A stretch of 32,314 nucleotides of DNA from Bifidobacteriaceae bacterium (GTDB lineage: Bacteria; Actinomycetota; Actinomycetes; Actinomycetales; WQXJ01), in the NCBI GenBank assembly GCA_031265345.1, contig JAISCU010000233.1:1-32314 (forward strand), in the 5' to 3' direction. Both the position numbers and the translations under genes were made by a program. The number at the start of each line of letters is the position of its first letter. Position 1 is the stretch's first letter. This document shows, in pieces, positions 1-17,442 of the stretch. Below the pieces are notes generated by a model. That model was not told the origin of the DNA. It searched no databases and saw only the letters and a program-made list of their open reading frames with translations.

Positions 1-33
1 GCATCTACTGCGGCTGAAACCCGCCCGTCCCCT

Positions 34-114
34 GAGACACCAACGCACACAAGTTCCCGAGACACAAACGTCCACAAGACTCCGAGACAGAAGTGTCCAC
101 AAGACTCCGAGACA
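34..114. repeat. Tandem 25-bp repeats, possible insertion-sequence end
   Basis: Three units with an exact 25-bp period start at 34, 59 and 84, and a partial fourth starts at 109. The shared core is GAGACA followed by TCCACAAGACTCC; units 2 and 3 are nearly identical and unit 1 is more diverged. Read on the minus strand each unit starts close to TGTCTC. Multiple short terminal repeats of this kind are typical of IS21-like and related transposon ends. No transposase is visible in the window, so the element would lie to the left. The transposon reading is inference. Confidence 0.55.
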
Positions 115-11136: not shown

Positions 11137-14100
11137 TCAGTCGCTCGACGCCCGTTCCCAGGCCTCGAGCTGGCTCGCGAGAACGCTGAAGAACTGGTGC
11201 TTCTCCCACTTGTCTCTGTCGCCTATGACGTACAGCCGTCGCTTGGCGCGGCTTACTGCCACGTTCAACAGATTGGGCTCGGCCGCCGCCCATCGCTTCG
11301 CGCCGGGGCGCTCGGGGTTGCCGCCCAGGACGATGATGACAATGTCGCCCTCTTTGCCCTGAGCGGTGTGGATGGTCCCCGCTGTGATCCCTGGGTAGGT
11401 CTTCGCCTTGTGCCGCAAGCGCGTCGCCACGGTTCGGAACGGCGACACGACCAGCACCTCCCGCATGTCGAAATCGATACTGAGGAGATAGTCCAGGACG
11501 CGGTCGAGCTCTTTGCCCTCGTCGGGTAGCCAGTGCCCCGCGCCCGGGACGCCGCTGGCGGGCACGTCCAACCATTTCGACCGAGGAAGCCTGAGATACC
11601 GCTTGGCGAACCCCTCGCCCATCGCTTGCGGGGTCCCGCTCACCATCAGCCCGTCATACGCGATCATGTTGGAGATGGAGAACATCGGTTCGTCGCAGCG
11701 CCGGTGCACCACGAGTGGCAGGCCGACCCATTTGGTGCCGCCCGTCACTTGGTCGGCTAGTTCCGTCCCCCAGCCGGTGGCGTGATCGGCTAACTCTTGG
11801 GCGGACGCGCGCGTGGTCAGCCAGCGTTCCGGGATGTCGAAGCCTCGCCTGAGCGCCTGCTCCGCCTTGAAGGAGAAAGACGTCACCGGCTTCAGCTGAT
11901 TCGGATCGCCCACCACGACCGCGCGCCGGGACCGCCAGATGGCGCCGACGGCCTGCTGGGGACCGACCTGACCCGCCTCGTCCAACAGGAGCCAGCCGAT
12001 CTGCCCCGGTCCGACCGAGCCGAACAGGCGCGCGAACGATGCCAAGGTCGTCGAGACGACCGGAACGACGCAGAAGAATGATTGCCAGGCCGCGAGCGCG
12101 GCATCGTCGCTGATCTTGGCCCCGTTCATGACGTCGAGCACGGCGGCGAGGTTCCGCTTGATGTTCGCGTGGTTGTGCATGATGAAGGCCTTGTGCAACC
12201 GGAGAGCCTCCAACGCCAGGCGGCTGCGGTCCTCGTTCCAACTCGGATCGGTCCACAGCGACCCCAGCTCCCGTGATATCCGAGCGGACGGATCGAACCA
12301 AGCTTCGCCCGGTAACTGGGGCCCCAAGTGAGAACGCCAGTTCGCCACCAGCGTTTGCCCGGCGGCCAGGCGCTCATTCAGGCGCGAGGCTTGGCCGCGC
12401 AATCGTTGGACGGCTTGCGCGGGCTCGCCCTGGTCTCGGTGATCGGCCCAGTCGCGCTGGCTGCGTCGAGCGGTGTCCAACTCAGATTCCAGTTCCGATA
12501 CGGTGGCGGCGTACGCCCTGTCCGCGCGCCGCCATTCCGCGTGGGCGCGGCCCAGCGTCATCAGGGTCGACCACAATCCTGGACGGAACCGCGAATGCTC
12601 GGTCCTTCGGTCGAGAGCACTTTGACGGTCTTCCTGGAGCGCCGCGATCTTCGACCCGAGTGCCCGCACGGCCTGGTCGGCCTGCTCGACCTCCGCGGCC
12701 GCGCGCGCCAAATCCGCGTCCGTGCGGGATATCGCCGCGAGGATGCTTCGCCTCGCGCTCATGGCGGCGAACACCGCTTGGCGATCTTGTTGGCCCTGCC
12801 TGGCCGCGTCGAGCGCACGGGTGAATCTGAGGACGGATTCCTCCCAGCTAGGGGTTCGCGCACCTGCGTCGAGCAATTCCGCCATTCCCGACACGCCGCC
12901 GTTCTCCGCTTTCGGCCAGTAGAACGATTGGGTGAAGTCCGCGCAGTTCTTCTTGTTTCCGAGCCTGGCGGCGAGGAGCGCCCAGGCTTTGCGGCCGGGC
13001 CCAGGGTCTGCATCTGACTCTGGCGCCGACGGCTTCCCCGGTGTCGAGGCCTTCCCGGGTCCTGTGCCCGACCCAGCCCCCGGTCCTCTGCCCGGCCCCG
13101 CCCCCGGTCCCGACCCAGGCCCCGTCACCAGCGCGGTGGCCAGGGCTGAGAAGTAATCCACCTCTGCGGCCCGTTCGATCCATTCCGGGCCCAAGGCCTT
13201 GTCGAGCGGGATTTCGAGGACCACGTTCTCGACCGCCCCATTGTTGGTCGAGGCCACAACTATTTCATGGCCAGTCAAGTCGTCGCGCAATTGGTGGACT
13301 CGAAAGGTTCTGTCATTGCGCTTGAAGGTGATGGTCTTGGTGAAAGCGTCACCAGGTCGCGCCAATTGACTCAGGCGGATCGCGCGTTCCACCACGACAT
13401 CGGCTATGAGGTCGCGCAAGAGCGTGGTCTTCCCAGTGCCTGGCGGTCCGTTCACGCCCACCACGCCCTCGCCGGTCCCCAGAACACTTTTCGCGTAGTT
13501 GACGGCCGATTGCTGACCCAGGACCAGGGGCTGTTCAGGGGCTGCTGGCCAATGCCCCAAAGGGATCCGTTCCGGGGCGAGGTTGTCGAACACGGCGCCG
13601 AGGGCATCTCTGACATCGACCCGATCGGTCGGCGCGGCCCCCCGTCCCGGCCCCAGGTAGGCGCCCAGCGCGCCGCGGGCCCGTCCCCGTCGCAGACTGT
13701 CCTCCACTCGGGCGAGGTCCTCGAGGAAGAAGCTGTTGAGGAACTCCCCGCCGTGCTCCGGATTCCTTCGGCTGATTCTCTTGGTCCGGACGCGACAGGC
13801 GTCTGGCCGGAGGCAACTCTCCACGTTCAACCGCTCCGCGACCAGACTCCGCGCCCGCTCCAAGTCCGGCTGGGCGAGCGGGGCCTCAGGGCAGTCCCGC
13901 CCTTCGCCAAGGCAGTGCTCCACTTCGTCCGCGAGTTCCGCCACCAGGGAGTCGAAGCCGGCCTTCTTCAGCGGGAAGACGGTTCCCTCTTTGAGGAATT
14001 CGCCCATTCCCCAGGCGCAGGTCGATAGGGCGAATGTGTCGGGGACATACTGGCCGCGCTCGTCCACGCACACGTACGCCATGGCCGCCTCACCCGCCGG

Positions 14101-14373
14101 ATATTGGTCCTCGCTGTCAGGGTCCGGCGGGAAGAATCTGGTGATTTCGCTGAACACCCGTTCCTGGTCGAAGACTCCGATGAACACGTCATGGGCGAAA
14201 ACGGTTTTCGATTTGCCGGATTCGTCCGGCGCGTAGGCGGGCAGGCGCCAAGGAACATCGGTGCCCAGAGTGCACACATGTTCGCTGTCATCTACCTTGG
14301 GCGCGAGCTGGGGATAGAACATCTCAACCATCTGCCAGTGTTGCAGGGCTCTGACCTGCTCCGGATCGCGCAC
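11137..14373 (-). CDS. Superfamily 1 (Upf1/Dna2-like) DNA/RNA helicase
   Basis: A 1078-residue protein from GTG 14373, with GGAGGGGGG about 8 bases upstream. Helicase motifs in order: Walker A GVNGPPGTGKTTLL (near 306-319), Walker B LLLDEAGQ (near 797), motif III GDPNQLKPV (near 823), motif V GTIHTAQGKEGDIVI (near 1000) and motif VI NVAVSRAKRRLYVIGD (near 1040). The two RecA halves are separated by a Gly/Pro/Ser linker (about 412-455) and a long helical, probably coiled-coil, insert (about 540-700). The N-terminal ~280 residues (RALQHWQMVEMFYPQLAPKV onward) resemble the lead domain of large prokaryotic Upf1-like helicases of unknown role. No nuclease motif is seen. Such stand-alone helicases often occur in accessory or defence islands. 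It is divergent from the AAA-ATPase gene across a hairpin-rich region. Confidence 0.88.
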   Translation of the reverse strand: MRDPEQVRALQHWQMVEMFYPQLAPKVDDSEHVCTLGTDVPWRLPAYAPDESGKSKTVFAHDVFIGVFDQERVFSEITRFFPPDPDSEDQYPAGEAAMAYVCVDERGQYVPDTFALSTCAWGMGEFLKEGTVFPLKKAGFDSLVAELADEVEHCLGEGRDCPEAPLAQPDLERARSLVAERLNVESCLRPDACRVRTKRISRRNPEHGGEFLNSFFLEDLARVEDSLRRGRARGALGAYLGPGRGAAPTDRVDVRDALGAVFDNLAPERIPLGHWPAAPEQPLVLGQQSAVNYAKSVLGTGEGVVGVNGPPGTGKTTLLRDLIADVVVERAIRLSQLARPGDAFTKTITFKRNDRTFRVHQLRDDLTGHEIVVASTNNGAVENVVLEIPLDKALGPEWIERAAEVDYFSALATALVTGPGSGPGAGPGRGPGAGSGTGPGKASTPGKPSAPESDADPGPGRKAWALLAARLGNKKNCADFTQSFYWPKAENGGVSGMAELLDAGARTPSWEESVLRFTRALDAARQGQQDRQAVFAAMSARRSILAAISRTDADLARAAAEVEQADQAVRALGSKIAALQEDRQSALDRRTEHSRFRPGLWSTLMTLGRAHAEWRRADRAYAATVSELESELDTARRSQRDWADHRDQGEPAQAVQRLRGQASRLNERLAAGQTLVANWRSHLGPQLPGEAWFDPSARISRELGSLWTDPSWNEDRSRLALEALRLHKAFIMHNHANIKRNLAAVLDVMNGAKISDDAALAAWQSFFCVVPVVSTTLASFARLFGSVGPGQIGWLLLDEAGQVGPQQAVGAIWRSRRAVVVGDPNQLKPVTSFSFKAEQALRRGFDIPERWLTTRASAQELADHATGWGTELADQVTGGTKWVGLPLVVHRRCDEPMFSISNMIAYDGLMVSGTPQAMGEGFAKRYLRLPRSKWLDVPASGVPGAGHWLPDEGKELDRVLDYLLSIDFDMREVLVVSPFRTVATRLRHKAKTYPGITAGTIHTAQGKEGDIVIIVLGGNPERPGAKRWAAAEPNLLNVAVSRAKRRLYVIGDRDKWEKHQFFSVLASQLEAWERASSD

Positions 14374-14427
14374 CTTTGGCCCCCCTCCAATCGGACACAG
14401 CCAACGTTACAGGCCGTGGCTGACGCC

Positions 14428-14507
14428 ACTTTGCCCGATGCAGCCCAACCGGTTCCCACCGCATCCCGGCTCCTAGCGCGCACGGGTTCGCGCCGTTCGG
14501 GTGTCCC
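14428..14507. repeat. Left member of a direct-repeat pair flanking the AAA-ATPase gene
   Basis: The 80 bases starting ACTTTGCCCGATGC align without gaps to 16086-16165. The first 14 bases are identical and about two thirds overall match by eye, including shared CGGCTCC and CGCGCCG blocks. The pair encloses the hairpin array and the AAA-ATPase gene. Confidence 0.5.
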
Positions 14508-14530
14508 CTACGTGTCCGATTCCAAACAAA

Positions 14531-14625
14531 GCCCGCCAAAACGTGGTCGTGAACCCCGGTTTTGGCGAGCAATAGTCAGATTGCTCGCCAAAACGTTGTC
14601 GCACGCTATGGTTTTGGCGAGCAAT
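14531..14625. repeat. 52-bp tandem hairpin array, candidate operator of the ATPase/helicase pair
   Basis: There are four arms. Arms b (14559-14573) and d (14611-14625) are identical, GTTTTGGCGAGCAAT. Arm c (14580-14594) is their exact complement, ATTGCTCGCCAAAAC. Arm a (14531-14542), GCCCGCCAAAAC, is a slightly diverged complement. Arms a-b and c-d form hairpins with equal 16-base loops, and b-c form a 15-bp perfect inverted repeat with a 6-base spacer, so the period is 52 bp. Possible promoter elements for the rightward gene (TTGCTC 14581-14586, TATGGT 14606-14611) lie inside it. That location suggests autoregulation or a recognition site for the encoded ATPase; the function is inference. 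Confidence 0.75.
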
Positions 14626-14642
14626 GAGAGGGGTTGAGCGCC

Positions 14643-16055
14643 GTGCTGATTGGCCGAGTCGAGGAGGTGGCCACGCTCCGAGCGTGCTTCGAGTCGCCAA
14701 ATTCGCACTTCGTCGCTGTCTATGGCCGTCGTAGAGTCGGCAAGACCCACCTTGTCAAGACCCTGTTCCAAGATGATTTCGCCTTCTATTGCACTGGACT
14801 GGCCAAGGAAGGGACGCGCCGCCAACTGGCGAACTTCGCGGATTCGCTGGCAGACTCCGGTGAATCTAGGTCGGCTCCGCCGCAGGATTGGTTCGAGGCC
14901 TTCCGCCGTTTGCGCGACTTGCCACGTGGCCGCTCTTCGGCCGACAAGGCGGTGGTGTTCCTGGATGAACTGCCGTGGATGGACACCCACAAGTCGGACC
15001 TGACTTCGGCATTGGAATGGTTTTGGAACGCTTGGGCCTCGACCAACGACGTGCTCCTGATCGTTTGCGGATCGGCCACGTCGTGGCTGATCCGAAAGGT
15101 CTTCGCCGACCACGGCGGTCTCCACAACCGTGTCACGCGGCGTGTTCACCTTGAGCCCTTCACGCTCGCGGAGTGCGAGGCGTTCCTGGAAGCCAAAGGC
15201 GTGGTGATGGCACGGAAGGAGATCGTCGAGGCCTACATGGTCTTCGGCGGAATCCCTTTCTACTTCGACCAGTTCGACGGACGGTTCTCGCTGGCCCAGA
15301 ACATTGGTCGCCTCTGCTTCTCGCGGATGGGCCCCCTGCGGCACGAGTACGAGGAACTGTACGCGTCCTTGTTCAAACAGCCCGACAACCACATGAAAGT
15401 GGTCGAGGCACTGAGTCGCCGAGGCCAGGGCCTGCGGCGCGATGATATCGCTGCGCAAACGGGGCTCGCCTCTGGCGGTGGGTTGTCGAAGGTGCTGAAG
15501 GAGTTGGAGGACTCGGGGTTCGTCCGCAGCTACCAGCCATTCGGTCGCAAACGCCAAGGGGCGCTGTACCAACTGATTGACTCCTTCACGCTTTTCCACT
15601 TCACGTTCATCGAGAACGGTTCCGTGGACCCGGACTATTGGGTGAAATACGCGTCCACGGGAAGCCACTCGGCATGGTCCGGCTATGCCTTCGAGAAGGT
15701 TGTTCATTGGCATGAGCGGCAGGTGCTGGCCAGGCTCGGCGTTCTCGGAGTGATCACGCGGGTGCAGGCGTGGCGTAGCGAGCAAGTCAAACCCGGTGCC
15801 CAGATCGACTTGGTAATAGACCGGGCTGATAACGTCATCAACCTCTGCGAAGTGAAATTCGCCACCGACGAGTTTGCGGTCGCCAAGGCCCTCGAACAGG
15901 ACTTGCGCCGCAAGAGGACGGCGTTCGTCGCGGAGACGGGCACCAAGAAAGCCATCCACTGGACGATGATCACGACCTACGGCCTGGCGCGGAACGCGTA
16001 CCGCAGCGCCGTGCAGTCCGAGGTCACGGCTGACGACCTGTTCCGGGAGACGTAG
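14643..16055 (+). CDS. AAA-ATPase with winged helix and DUF234-type PD-(D/E)XK-like C-terminus
   Basis: A 470-residue protein. GTG 14643 is preferred because GAGAGGGG ends 9 bases before it; TTG 14634 in the same frame has no spacing from that site. Walker A is GRRRVGKT (28-35) and Walker B is VVFLDELPW (about 104-112). The sequence runs from MLIGRVEEVATL through the ATPase core. Next comes a winged-helix DNA-binding segment, DDIAAQTGLASGGGLSKVLK (about 265-285). The C-terminal DUF234-like domain contains GAQIDLVID and NLCEVKF (about 385-405), the D...E-x-K pattern of the PD-(D/E)XK nuclease fold. This architecture is common in prokaryotes and archaea, yet its role is unknown. The 52-bp hairpin array sits directly upstream and ~80-bp direct repeats flank the gene, which together look like a self-contained accessory unit. 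Confidence 0.88.
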   Translation: MLIGRVEEVATLRACFESPNSHFVAVYGRRRVGKTHLVKTLFQDDFAFYCTGLAKEGTRRQLANFADSLADSGESRSAPPQDWFEAFRRLRDLPRGRSSADKAVVFLDELPWMDTHKSDLTSALEWFWNAWASTNDVLLIVCGSATSWLIRKVFADHGGLHNRVTRRVHLEPFTLAECEAFLEAKGVVMARKEIVEAYMVFGGIPFYFDQFDGRFSLAQNIGRLCFSRMGPLRHEYEELYASLFKQPDNHMKVVEALSRRGQGLRRDDIAAQTGLASGGGLSKVLKELEDSGFVRSYQPFGRKRQGALYQLIDSFTLFHFTFIENGSVDPDYWVKYASTGSHSAWSGYAFEKVVHWHERQVLARLGVLGVITRVQAWRSEQVKPGAQIDLVIDRADNVINLCEVKFATDEFAVAKALEQDLRRKRTAFVAETGTKKAIHWTMITTYGLARNAYRSAVQSEVTADDLFRET

Positions 16056-16085: not shown

Positions 16086-16165
16086 ACTTTGCCCGATGCC
16101 GTGCAGTCGGCGCCCGCCGTGCCTCGGCTCCCGAGCTGTGCGGGTCCGCGCCGGTTCAGTGTTCC
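16086..16165. repeat. Right member of the direct-repeat pair flanking the AAA-ATPase gene
   Basis: This aligns with 14428-14507; see that entry for the match. It begins 30 bases after the ATPase stop codon. A 9-bp inverted repeat, GCGGGCGCC (16076-16084) with GGCGCCCGC (16109-16117), overlaps its left part and could serve as the gene's terminator. Confidence 0.5.
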
Positions 16166-16248: not shown

Positions 16249-17391
16249 CTACTCCGGGAACACCTTGGACGTGTCGGCTGGCGGGGCGTCCGCGACGATC
16301 CGGTCCCAAATGGCCGCCACCGCCGGGCCGGCGGAATAGGCGCGGGCACGGTTGTCGCCTTGAGCGGTCAATAGCCCTGCGGCGGCCAGGGCGGCCAGGT
16401 CGCGAGCGGCGGCCCTGGCTGAGAGGGTCTGGCCGTCGGCGGCGAGCAGCGCCTGGTAAGAGGCTCGGGTGACGCGCAGGCCGAGGGCGGCGTCCATCAG
16501 GGCGGTCAGAGCGCGTTCGTCAGCATTGTCCGCGAGCGACGCGAGCTCCAGCCACAACCGGTCCAGGTCGCGCAGCCGCCGCTGGTAGGACTCGGTCTGG
16601 TGCAGGTGCGCGGCCAGGACGAACCGGACCCACGGCAACGCGGATCGTGCGGGCTGGTGGCTGGAACCAGTGGAGGCCAATGCCGCATAGTACGCATTGG
16701 TGTTCGTGCCGAGGTATTCCTCGATGCTCATGAACTGAGCGGAGACAACTCCGTGCCGCGCCAGCACCAGGCTCTGCAGGCAGCGCGCCGTGCGCCCGTT
16801 GCCGTCGCGGAACGGATGCACGCGCACCAGGTTGAGGTGGGCCATCGCTGCGGCCACCAGCGGCTGGTCGGTCGGCTGGTTGAGGGCGCCGACCAGTTCC
16901 GCCATGAGACCAGGCACCTGGTCGGGATCCGGCGCGGTGTAGGCGATCGCGCCCCCGGCGCCGGTCACGTAGATCGGACCGGCCCGCCAGCTACCCGGCC
17001 TGGCCCGCGAGTCGCCGGACGTGATCATGAAGTGGAGGCCGCGGATCAAATGAGACGAGTATTCAGGGGCCTCGTGATCGTCCGCGAGCTGCAGCGAGAA
17101 CGTCATGGCGTCGCGGTACCCCGCCAGGGCGCGCTTGGTCGACTCGGCCAACTCGCCCGCGTCGCGTCGGTCCACGACGGCGACCGCCTGGTCCAGCGAA
17201 GAGATGAAGCCCTCGATCTGGTTGGAGCTCTTGACGGCCTCGCCCAGGGCTAGCCGCCGCAGGTTCCGGGTCCACCGGCGCGGCTCGGACAACGAGCCTC
17301 GCAACTGGGCGCGCAGGTGATCGATCCGGCCGATCACGTCCATTTCCGAATCGCCCAAGGGCGGCGCCGAATAGAGCACCTTGTCCTCCAT
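16249..17391 (-). CDS. Fic family protein, probable class II AMP-transferase
   Basis: A 380-residue protein from ATG 17391, chosen because a TATAAT box ends 7 bases upstream, which predicts a leaderless message; an in-frame ATG lies 24 bases further upstream. The catalytic motif HPFRDGNGRTAR (about 193-204) is the canonical HPFx(D/E)GNGRxxR, so AMP transfer to a protein hydroxyl is likely. SSNQIEGF (about 54-61) matches the inhibitory (S/T)xxxE(G/N) helix, N-terminal to the Fic core. That makes it class II and self-inhibited. The C-terminal ~100 residues form a winged helix (QTLSARAAARDLAALAAAGL), common in Fic proteins of the DOC/Fic-wHTH type. No separate antitoxin gene is adjacent. The target protein is unknown. 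Confidence 0.92.
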   Translation of the reverse strand: MEDKVLYSAPPLGDSEMDVIGRIDHLRAQLRGSLSEPRRWTRNLRRLALGEAVKSSNQIEGFISSLDQAVAVVDRRDAGELAESTKRALAGYRDAMTFSLQLADDHEAPEYSSHLIRGLHFMITSGDSRARPGSWRAGPIYVTGAGGAIAYTAPDPDQVPGLMAELVGALNQPTDQPLVAAAMAHLNLVRVHPFRDGNGRTARCLQSLVLARHGVVSAQFMSIEEYLGTNTNAYYAALASTGSSHQPARSALPWVRFVLAAHLHQTESYQRRLRDLDRLWLELASLADNADERALTALMDAALGLRVTRASYQALLAADGQTLSARAAARDLAALAAAGLLTAQGDNRARAYSAGPAVAAIWDRIVADAPPADTSKVFPE

Positions 17392-17442
17392 GTGGCAGAT
17401 TATATCAGCCACCATGGCTCATTGCCTACGACAATCTGCCAC
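17392..17442 (-). promoter_or_regulatory. Fic leaderless promoter inside a 10-bp inverted repeat
   Basis: On the minus strand TATAAT (17404-17399) is followed by 7 bases and then ATG 17391, so transcription would begin at or next to the start codon. GTGGCAGATT (17392-17401) and AATCTGCCAC (17433-17442) are perfect inverted arms, centred about 33 bases apart. One arm overlaps the -10 box, as expected for an operator. The winged helix in the Fic protein makes autoregulation possible (inference). Confidence 0.55.

Follow-up and report, generated by a model that had tools for sequence, protein, structure and literature searches.

Why should the gene of a predicted ATPase with a nuclease-like domain begin directly behind an array of alternating inverted repeats? 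The question is raised by a contig of a Bifidobacteriaceae bacterium (JAISCU010000233.1, positions 1 to 32,314 of the forward strand; this whole stretch of 32,314 nucleotides is called the window), in which such an array precedes the gene of a 470-residue protein matching the PDC-S27 profile. Comparison with relatives of this gene points, with a probability that may be put at about 0.83, to a private autoregulatory operator, that is, an array read by the winged helix of the very ATPase-nuclease encoded beside it, which would hold back transcription of its own gene.

The repeat array and the encoded protein

The array (14528-14625) consists of four half-sites of 15 base pairs (bp) in alternating orientation, three of them identical and one diverged (Table 1). 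Both head-to-head loops measure 16 bases, the middle spacer 6 bases and the period 52 bp. The initial annotation of this DNA had described four copies of one arm with equal 16-base loops and a 52-bp period; the geometry was recovered, but the copies are not all equal, one arm matching the others at 12/15 positions. The first arm, which had been placed at 14531-14542, is present there but pairs at 11/12 positions, and the full arm extends over 14528-14542. The central 15-bp perfect inverted repeat with its 6-base spacer was confirmed (half-sites 2 and 3), as was the location upstream of the ATPase start in a divergent intergenic region (14374-14642) between a helicase gene on the minus strand (11137-14373) and the ATPase gene on the plus strand, which probably starts at the GTG at 14643. 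Contrary to what had been proposed, the array does not reach 14642; positions 14626-14642, a likely ribosome-binding site plus leader, lie outside it. A 13-mer core of the half-site has three matches with up to two mismatches in the 32,314 bases, all of them within the array, against a mean of 0.31 in shuffled sequence (three matches were reached in none of 100 shuffles). No tRNA was found in the window by ARAGORN, and no Rfam family was found in it at gathering thresholds.

In the AlphaFold model of the protein (mean predicted local distance difference test score 92.1), an ATPase part is followed by a winged helix and then by a domain carrying D389, E403 and K405. The recognition helix would comprise residues 279-290 and the wing residues 294-311 (element names read from the model); residue 277 is placed just before this helix and residue 305 in the wing. 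Among 40 aligned sequences D389 is nearly invariant and E403 and K405 are invariant; the three residues stand in PD-(D/E)XK order, with model strands at 387-394 and 398-405. The C-terminal domain, an alpha/beta core with a D-(D/E)xK motif, is a putative PD-(D/E)XK nuclease. Both the winged helix and the PD-(D/E)XK-like domain of the initial annotation were seen in the model and the motif is conserved. Its DUF234 label (a family whose accession we take to be PF03008) was dropped as unsupported, the Pfam matches of the ATPase being ATPase_2, AAA_16, AAA_14 and AAA_22 only (E-values up to 0.001). NCBIfam gave no match to the ATPase. The PADLOC profile PDC-S27 was matched at an E-value of 9.9e-188 (residues 2-467 on profile positions 4-473 of 474). 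The family is large, with 7999 of 8000 scored candidates passing an E-value of 1e-30.

Conservation of the array layout

Relatives were drawn from the best 80 of 576 confirmed genome loci, 16 viral loci, a paralogue search in 35 genomes and 100 further stretches, giving 222 matches that represent 176 distinct genes, of which 172 (three with reading frames shorter than 430 amino acids) entered the array counts; the distant relatives L088-L096 were excluded from them. By a half-site model (approximately GWTWYVGCNRAWTAT, head to tail) that was fitted on the same 172 loci that it scores and so favours real over control sequence, an upstream head-to-head pair at least 11/15 identical is present in 154 of 172 loci, whereas the mononucleotide shuffles give 15 and the gene-internal stretches 9 (172 of each); for pairs at least 12/15 identical the counts are 133, 2 and 3. 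The spacing of the pair is 30 or 31 bp in 146 of the 154 loci. An alternative scoring, for a pair at 30-32 bp, gave 119/172 loci versus 1/172 dinucleotide shuffles, 1/171 gene-internal and 28/170 downstream stretches, and inverted-repeat scores of at least 10 within 150 nucleotides upstream were found in 72/87 loci versus 4/88 gene-internal and 33/86 downstream stretches. Loci fetched later, and thus outside the model fit (78 of 79 used, one exact duplicate being left out), carry the pair in 73 of 78 cases versus 4 of 78 gene-internal stretches. The presence of palindromes upstream of homologues had been set as a test of the link between gene and repeat, and most homologues carry them (154/172 and 73/78), the same architecture appearing in homologues from several phyla.

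The number of half-sites per locus varies from two to seven. Tail-to-tail spacings cluster at about 21-24, 31-33, 42-44 and 50-55 bp, with a best period of 10.9 that exceeds 500 random sets when all 133 spacings are taken and also when the set is restricted to the 56 of at least 28 bp; for the 35 spacings of at least 40 bp, it exceeds only the 95% level of random sets. Pair-to-pair spacings are in helical phase.

No relative was found when viral contigs were searched with a single sequence, and scanning such contigs for a 14-mer (at least 120 stretches, one match per row) was uninformative. Two different upstream motifs were noted. The haloarchaeal loci L368, L369 and L371 share AAGTCATTATCGCAGTAATCATTA just 5' of the start, a different operator candidate, and the distant viral-contig relatives L088 and L089 have AAATCACGATT twice before the start.

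An arm of its own at nearly every locus

The consensus arms of the 154 loci are almost all distinct (151 of 154). Mean arm identity is 12.5/15 within loci, a figure raised by the picking of within-locus copies for likeness, versus 7.2 between loci. Paralogues within one genome follow the same rule: among those with a pair at least 12/15 identical, the 22 paralogues of genome G008 have 22 arms and the 14 of genome G025 have 14 arms, and arms within a genome are slightly less alike than arms between genomes at equal protein identity (a raw comparison). Genome-wide searches covered two arms, those of L255 and L256. Whether the palindrome is equally common away from such genes had also been set as a test; this is not so for the L255 arm, whose six sites with at most one mismatch in the 3.5-megabase genome G008 are all at its own locus. 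The exact pair pattern of L256 likewise occurs four times, each time at its own locus.

Covariation between protein residues and arm bases

Mutual information was calculated for each of 470 protein columns against each of 15 arm positions in 131 of the 154 loci (pair at least 12/15 identical, open protein of at least 430 amino acids). The highest values were obtained for residue 277 with arm position 6, 305 with 4, 277 with 5, 287 with 3 and 305 with 2. At residue 277, serine goes with G at arm position 6 (22/24), asparagine with A (30/35) and aspartate with C (28/42), while at residue 305 arginine goes with A at arm position 4 (43/48) and lysine with T (46/51). Contacts between asparagine and adenine and between aspartate and cytosine are known in other DNA readers. 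The window fits this code, with Ser277 and G at arm position 6, and Gln305 and T at arm position 4.

When 64 named loci were used for training and the 66 others were predicted, arm position 4 was obtained from residue 305 in 62/66 cases (baseline 41, next best residue 49) and position 6 from residue 277 in 49/66 (baseline 22, next best residue 36). Position 5 was obtained from residue 277 in 44 (baseline 36), and position 2 from residue 305 in only 43 (baseline 39), tied with another residue. The code was then applied to 56 of the 78 later loci, skipping positions where the two arms disagree; seven of the 56 share 70% identity or more with a training protein (99% in one case), and some genomes may overlap the first set. 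For each of the four combinations the named residue ranked first of 470: 277 for position 6 (40/54, baseline 12) and position 5 (35/54, baseline 29), and 305 for position 4 (46/49, baseline 38) and position 2 (34/42, baseline 20). The ranking held, without ties, in a non-redundant set of 40 later loci (less than 70% identical to training proteins, one per 70% cluster), where the corresponding counts were 27/38 (baseline 6), 25/39 (19), 32/35 (26) and 27/32 (17). Contrasts between 65 nearest pairs, taken from a tree in which the winged helix was left out, associated class change in the protein with base change in the arm (p = 6e-6 for arginine or not at residue 305 with position 4, 5e-6 for the class of residue 277 with position 6), and for any letter change residue 277 ranks first for position 6.

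The array, the promoter and alternative explanations

TAnnTTTG is the consensus of a Bacteroidota promoter box. In a scan of 42 Bacteroidota loci with an array, this box was found within 75 nucleotides of the start in 34, versus none of 20 Bacillota loci; relative to the end of the last arm it lies 3-15 bp after in 19 loci, 16-19 bp before in 9 and elsewhere in 6. Of the 20 Bacillota loci, 14 have a -10-like box at the tail of their last left arm, versus 13% at random positions, the arm tail itself being A+T rich so that the overlap is partly one of shared composition, and a -35-like box is present in 7. Judged by these consensus boxes, the array is on or beside the predicted promoter in both phyla. 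Since arm bases covary with winged-helix residues and the array stands at the predicted promoter, it is very probable that the encoded protein reads its own promoter through the winged helix. What comparison of sequences establishes is thus a family-wide layout, nearly universal private arms, covariation that holds on loci not used to find it, and a position at the predicted promoter.

In the operator reading, the winged helix would bind the 15-bp half-sites, two per head-to-head pair and 30-31 bp (about three helical turns) apart, and two to seven half-sites would be occupied over and next to the promoter. Transcription of the gene would be held back until the protein releases; the trigger might be, for instance, a nucleotide switch or a cue from phage or DNA. 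Residues 277 and 305 would set part of the sequence that is read, so that protein and operator would change together and paralogues would stay insulated from each other. We infer, beyond the comparisons themselves, that the protein would physically bind the array, repress rather than activate, be released by a signal and act in phage defence. A binding or processing site and an autoregulatory operator had been among the readings offered by the initial annotation, and the architecture, the winged-helix covariation and the promoter position lend strong comparative support to the binding site and the operator.

Several observations weigh against this operator reading. No clear pair was found in 18 of 172 loci, nor in 5 of the 78 later loci, and no recognisable sigma-70-like promoter was found in the window. 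With two mismatches allowed, the L255 arm has 21 sites in G008, of which 20 are away from its locus (a reversed-pattern control gave 8 in all). The pairing of residue 287 with arm position 3, strong in training, was dropped, as its score on later loci (50/53) equals the baseline. In the nearest-pair contrasts for any letter change, residue 274 ranks first for arm position 4, with 305 outside the best four listed. Arm positions 9-12 have no validated reader residue, so that the arm is explained only in part, and whole-protein and arm similarity are weakly linked (Mantel rho 0.14; of 500 permutations in one run one or more gave a higher value, of 1000 in another none did). In 32 of 152 loci own arms also stand behind the stop codon, a position that simple autorepression would not call for.

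The hairpins might instead act in the mRNA, as a structured leader for attenuation or translation control. Folding of 14531-14650 is predicted to be strong on both strands, better than all 200 shuffles (z-scores -4.7 and -6.2), and the array end adjoins the ribosome-binding site in the window and in most of the 20 Bacillota loci. However, the Bacteroidota box is 3' of the last arm's end in 23 of 34 loci, where the array would precede the transcript start, and in Bacillota the -10-like box seen at the last left arm of 14 of 20 loci would leave both arms of that pair untranscribed; these box positions make an RNA-hairpin role unlikely. Arm bases moreover track residues of a DNA-binding-type domain, and no Rfam match at gathering thresholds was obtained. 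This leader, another of the readings first offered, is therefore not supported and has a very slight chance of being correct. A slighter chance still attaches to an initiator-type site, comparable to the origins beside which archaeal Orc1/Cdc6 genes stand: one bacterial genome holds 25 matches, the array is at the promoter, and likeness to 2qen/2fna and to NLR/CED-4 proteins scores higher. The array might also be bound by an unrelated host regulator or be a terminator. In favour, inverted repeats are common near genes (the 33 of 86 downstream stretches scoring at least 10 illustrate this), but the arms vary by locus and track residues of the adjacent protein, and no T-run terminator-like site is present at the array; of the explanations weighed here, this is the least likely.

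Possible mobility of the array and gene

The arrays may also be the ends of a mobile unit, which the ATPase-nuclease would bind and help to move or copy as array and gene, with or without a second array, repression being a by-product; this is doubtful. The downstream own arms (32 of 152 loci) stand directly 3' of the stop codon, and in 26 of those 32 the upstream and downstream stretches match better in direct than in inverted orientation, yet most loci lack a downstream array. In the 250 bp behind the stop, 33/130 loci have own arms, versus 6/130 for the arm of another locus. Direct repeats of varied length (E<1e-6) bracket the gene in 49/159 loci and inverted repeats in 25/159, versus 0/159 swapped pairs in each case; in a subset, direct repeats were found in 23/74 loci versus 1/142 segment pairs away from the gene. 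Of the 49 loci with direct repeats, 27 have repeats overlapping the array, 18 have them outside it and 4 have no called array. The window belongs to those with repeats outside the array, its diverged direct repeat scoring 65 versus 41 for the best of 500 shuffles.

Empty sites were sought for the unit of another locus, L013, in 60 genomes of the genus of G008. Two were found, in G645 and G650, with the flanks abutting; the insert, however, ends some 55 and 35 bp beyond the arms, and there is no clean target duplication. In G675, G647 and G642 homology to the unit starts at the first arm and the left flanks are unlike that of L013; in G642 and G647, 56-62 bp of the right flank recur in the left one. 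In one isolate genome two copies that are 98% identical differ in their flanks, but the repeat that brackets them is dispersed in that genome (about ten further matches), and the unit may therefore be a passenger. Nor does the window's protein have a Pfam transposase domain, and no empty site is known for the window. The empty sites and differing flanks imply that units come and go. That homology stops at the array in pairs of 77-79% identity was dropped as proof of mobility, because flanks that have diverged would vanish anyway. The family is patchily distributed, with members in 1/346 genomes in the phylum of G031 (L069, Propionibacteriaceae; E<=1e-60), 11/247 in the phylum of G030 (Segatella) and 49/295 in the order of G008 (E<=1e-90 for both), centre genomes counted. 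A wider proposal is more doubtful again: PDC-S27 genes would be one-gene mobile units whose diversifying arrays, at the ends and at the promoter, would be read by the encoded STAND ATPase with winged helix and nuclease and serve both self-silencing and the moving or defending of the locus, a new address being needed beside the many paralogues.

The ATPase units L342 and L343 (G022) are bordered, much like cassettes, by repeats of about 60 bp, which match about ten more places in one isolate genome.

Relation to known systems

The best structural matches of the model are 2qen and 2fna, archaeal Walker-type ATPases, followed by plant NLR and CED-4 chains; the alignments to 2qen and 2fna span model residues 1-322, and the C-terminal domain was barely probed by this search. 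In STAND ATPases of the NLR, Apaf-1 and CED-4 type the winged-helix domain is a switch element, whereas that of the window's family appears to read DNA instead. Archaeal Orc1/Cdc6 is an AAA+ ATPase with a winged helix whose gene lies beside cognate inverted repeats at the origin; the window's family differs in its promoter overlap, its nuclease-like domain and its many copies in some bacterial genomes. RptR resembles the present case in being a repressor acting on promoter repeats of a defence locus, but is described in the accessible part of the source as a small, separate regulator for which a conserved 6-bp palindrome is the minimal site (PMC12255303). In PDC-S27 it is the effector-like enzyme itself that carries the predicted DNA reader, and hardly any two loci share a site.

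A literature search returned no report of such arrays within its coverage, outside which subscription papers and preprints mostly fall. The accessible text of the paper describing PDC-S27 does not contain the terms palindrom, promoter, winged or wHTH (PMC12988326).

Features of the window and its neighbourhood

Table 1. Positions of the array, the ATPase gene and the flanking repeats in the window
Feature	Position	Strand	Remark
Left copy, diverged direct repeat bracketing array and gene	14428..14507	.	54/80 identical, E 6e-9
Half-site 1, diverged	14528..14542	-	12/15 identical to others
Half-site 2, GTTTTGGCGAGCAAT	14559..14573	+	
Half-site 3, same 15-mer as half-site 2	14580..14594	-	
Half-site 4, same 15-mer as half-site 2, abutting the likely ribosome-binding site	14611..14625	+	
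Likely ribosome-binding site GAGAGGGG	14626..14633	+	read by eye
470-residue ATPase_2 (STAND-like) / winged helix / PD-(D/E)XK protein, PADLOC PDC-S27	14643..16055	+	
Putative winged helix, residues 247-311	15381..15575	+	AlphaFold model
Codon of residue 277 (Ser), covarying with arm positions 6 and 5	15471..15473	+	
Codon of residue 305 (Gln), covarying with arm positions 4 and 2	15555..15557	+	
Putative PD-(D/E)XK-like domain, residues 372-444	15756..15974	+	type from motif and strand order
Right copy, diverged direct repeat bracketing array and gene	16086..16165	.	

The product of the divergent helicase gene matches PADLOC MkoC (2.3e-59), and the ATPase may therefore sit among other defence-like genes. 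A Fic/DOC-family protein is encoded directly downstream (16249-17415, minus strand). Other tandem repeats were noted at the left end of the window (30-114, 3.4 copies of a 25-bp unit) and within the helicase gene (13054-13124, units of 24 bp and shorter).

Significance

PDC-S27 is presented, in the accessible part of its description, as a candidate phage-defence system in which an ATPase is fused to a PD-(D/E)XK domain, with 3503 detections in archaea and 4562 in bacteria (PMC12988326), and a further source, also accessible in part, gives 2865 in rumen genomes (PMC13356809). The window's protein matches the full-length profile and has the same fusion of an ATPase to a PD-(D/E)XK-like domain. 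The array would be a private, co-evolving autoregulatory operator of a defence-candidate ATPase-nuclease, probably carried on small mobile units, in a system that is abundant while still a putative one. Part of the DNA letters that would be read can be predicted for each protein, which offers a direct experimental handle on PDC-S27, and the family puts many separate natural pairs of regulator and operator on offer. The question that the family raises is why an NLR-like ATPase-nuclease should sit on, and evolve with, its own promoter.
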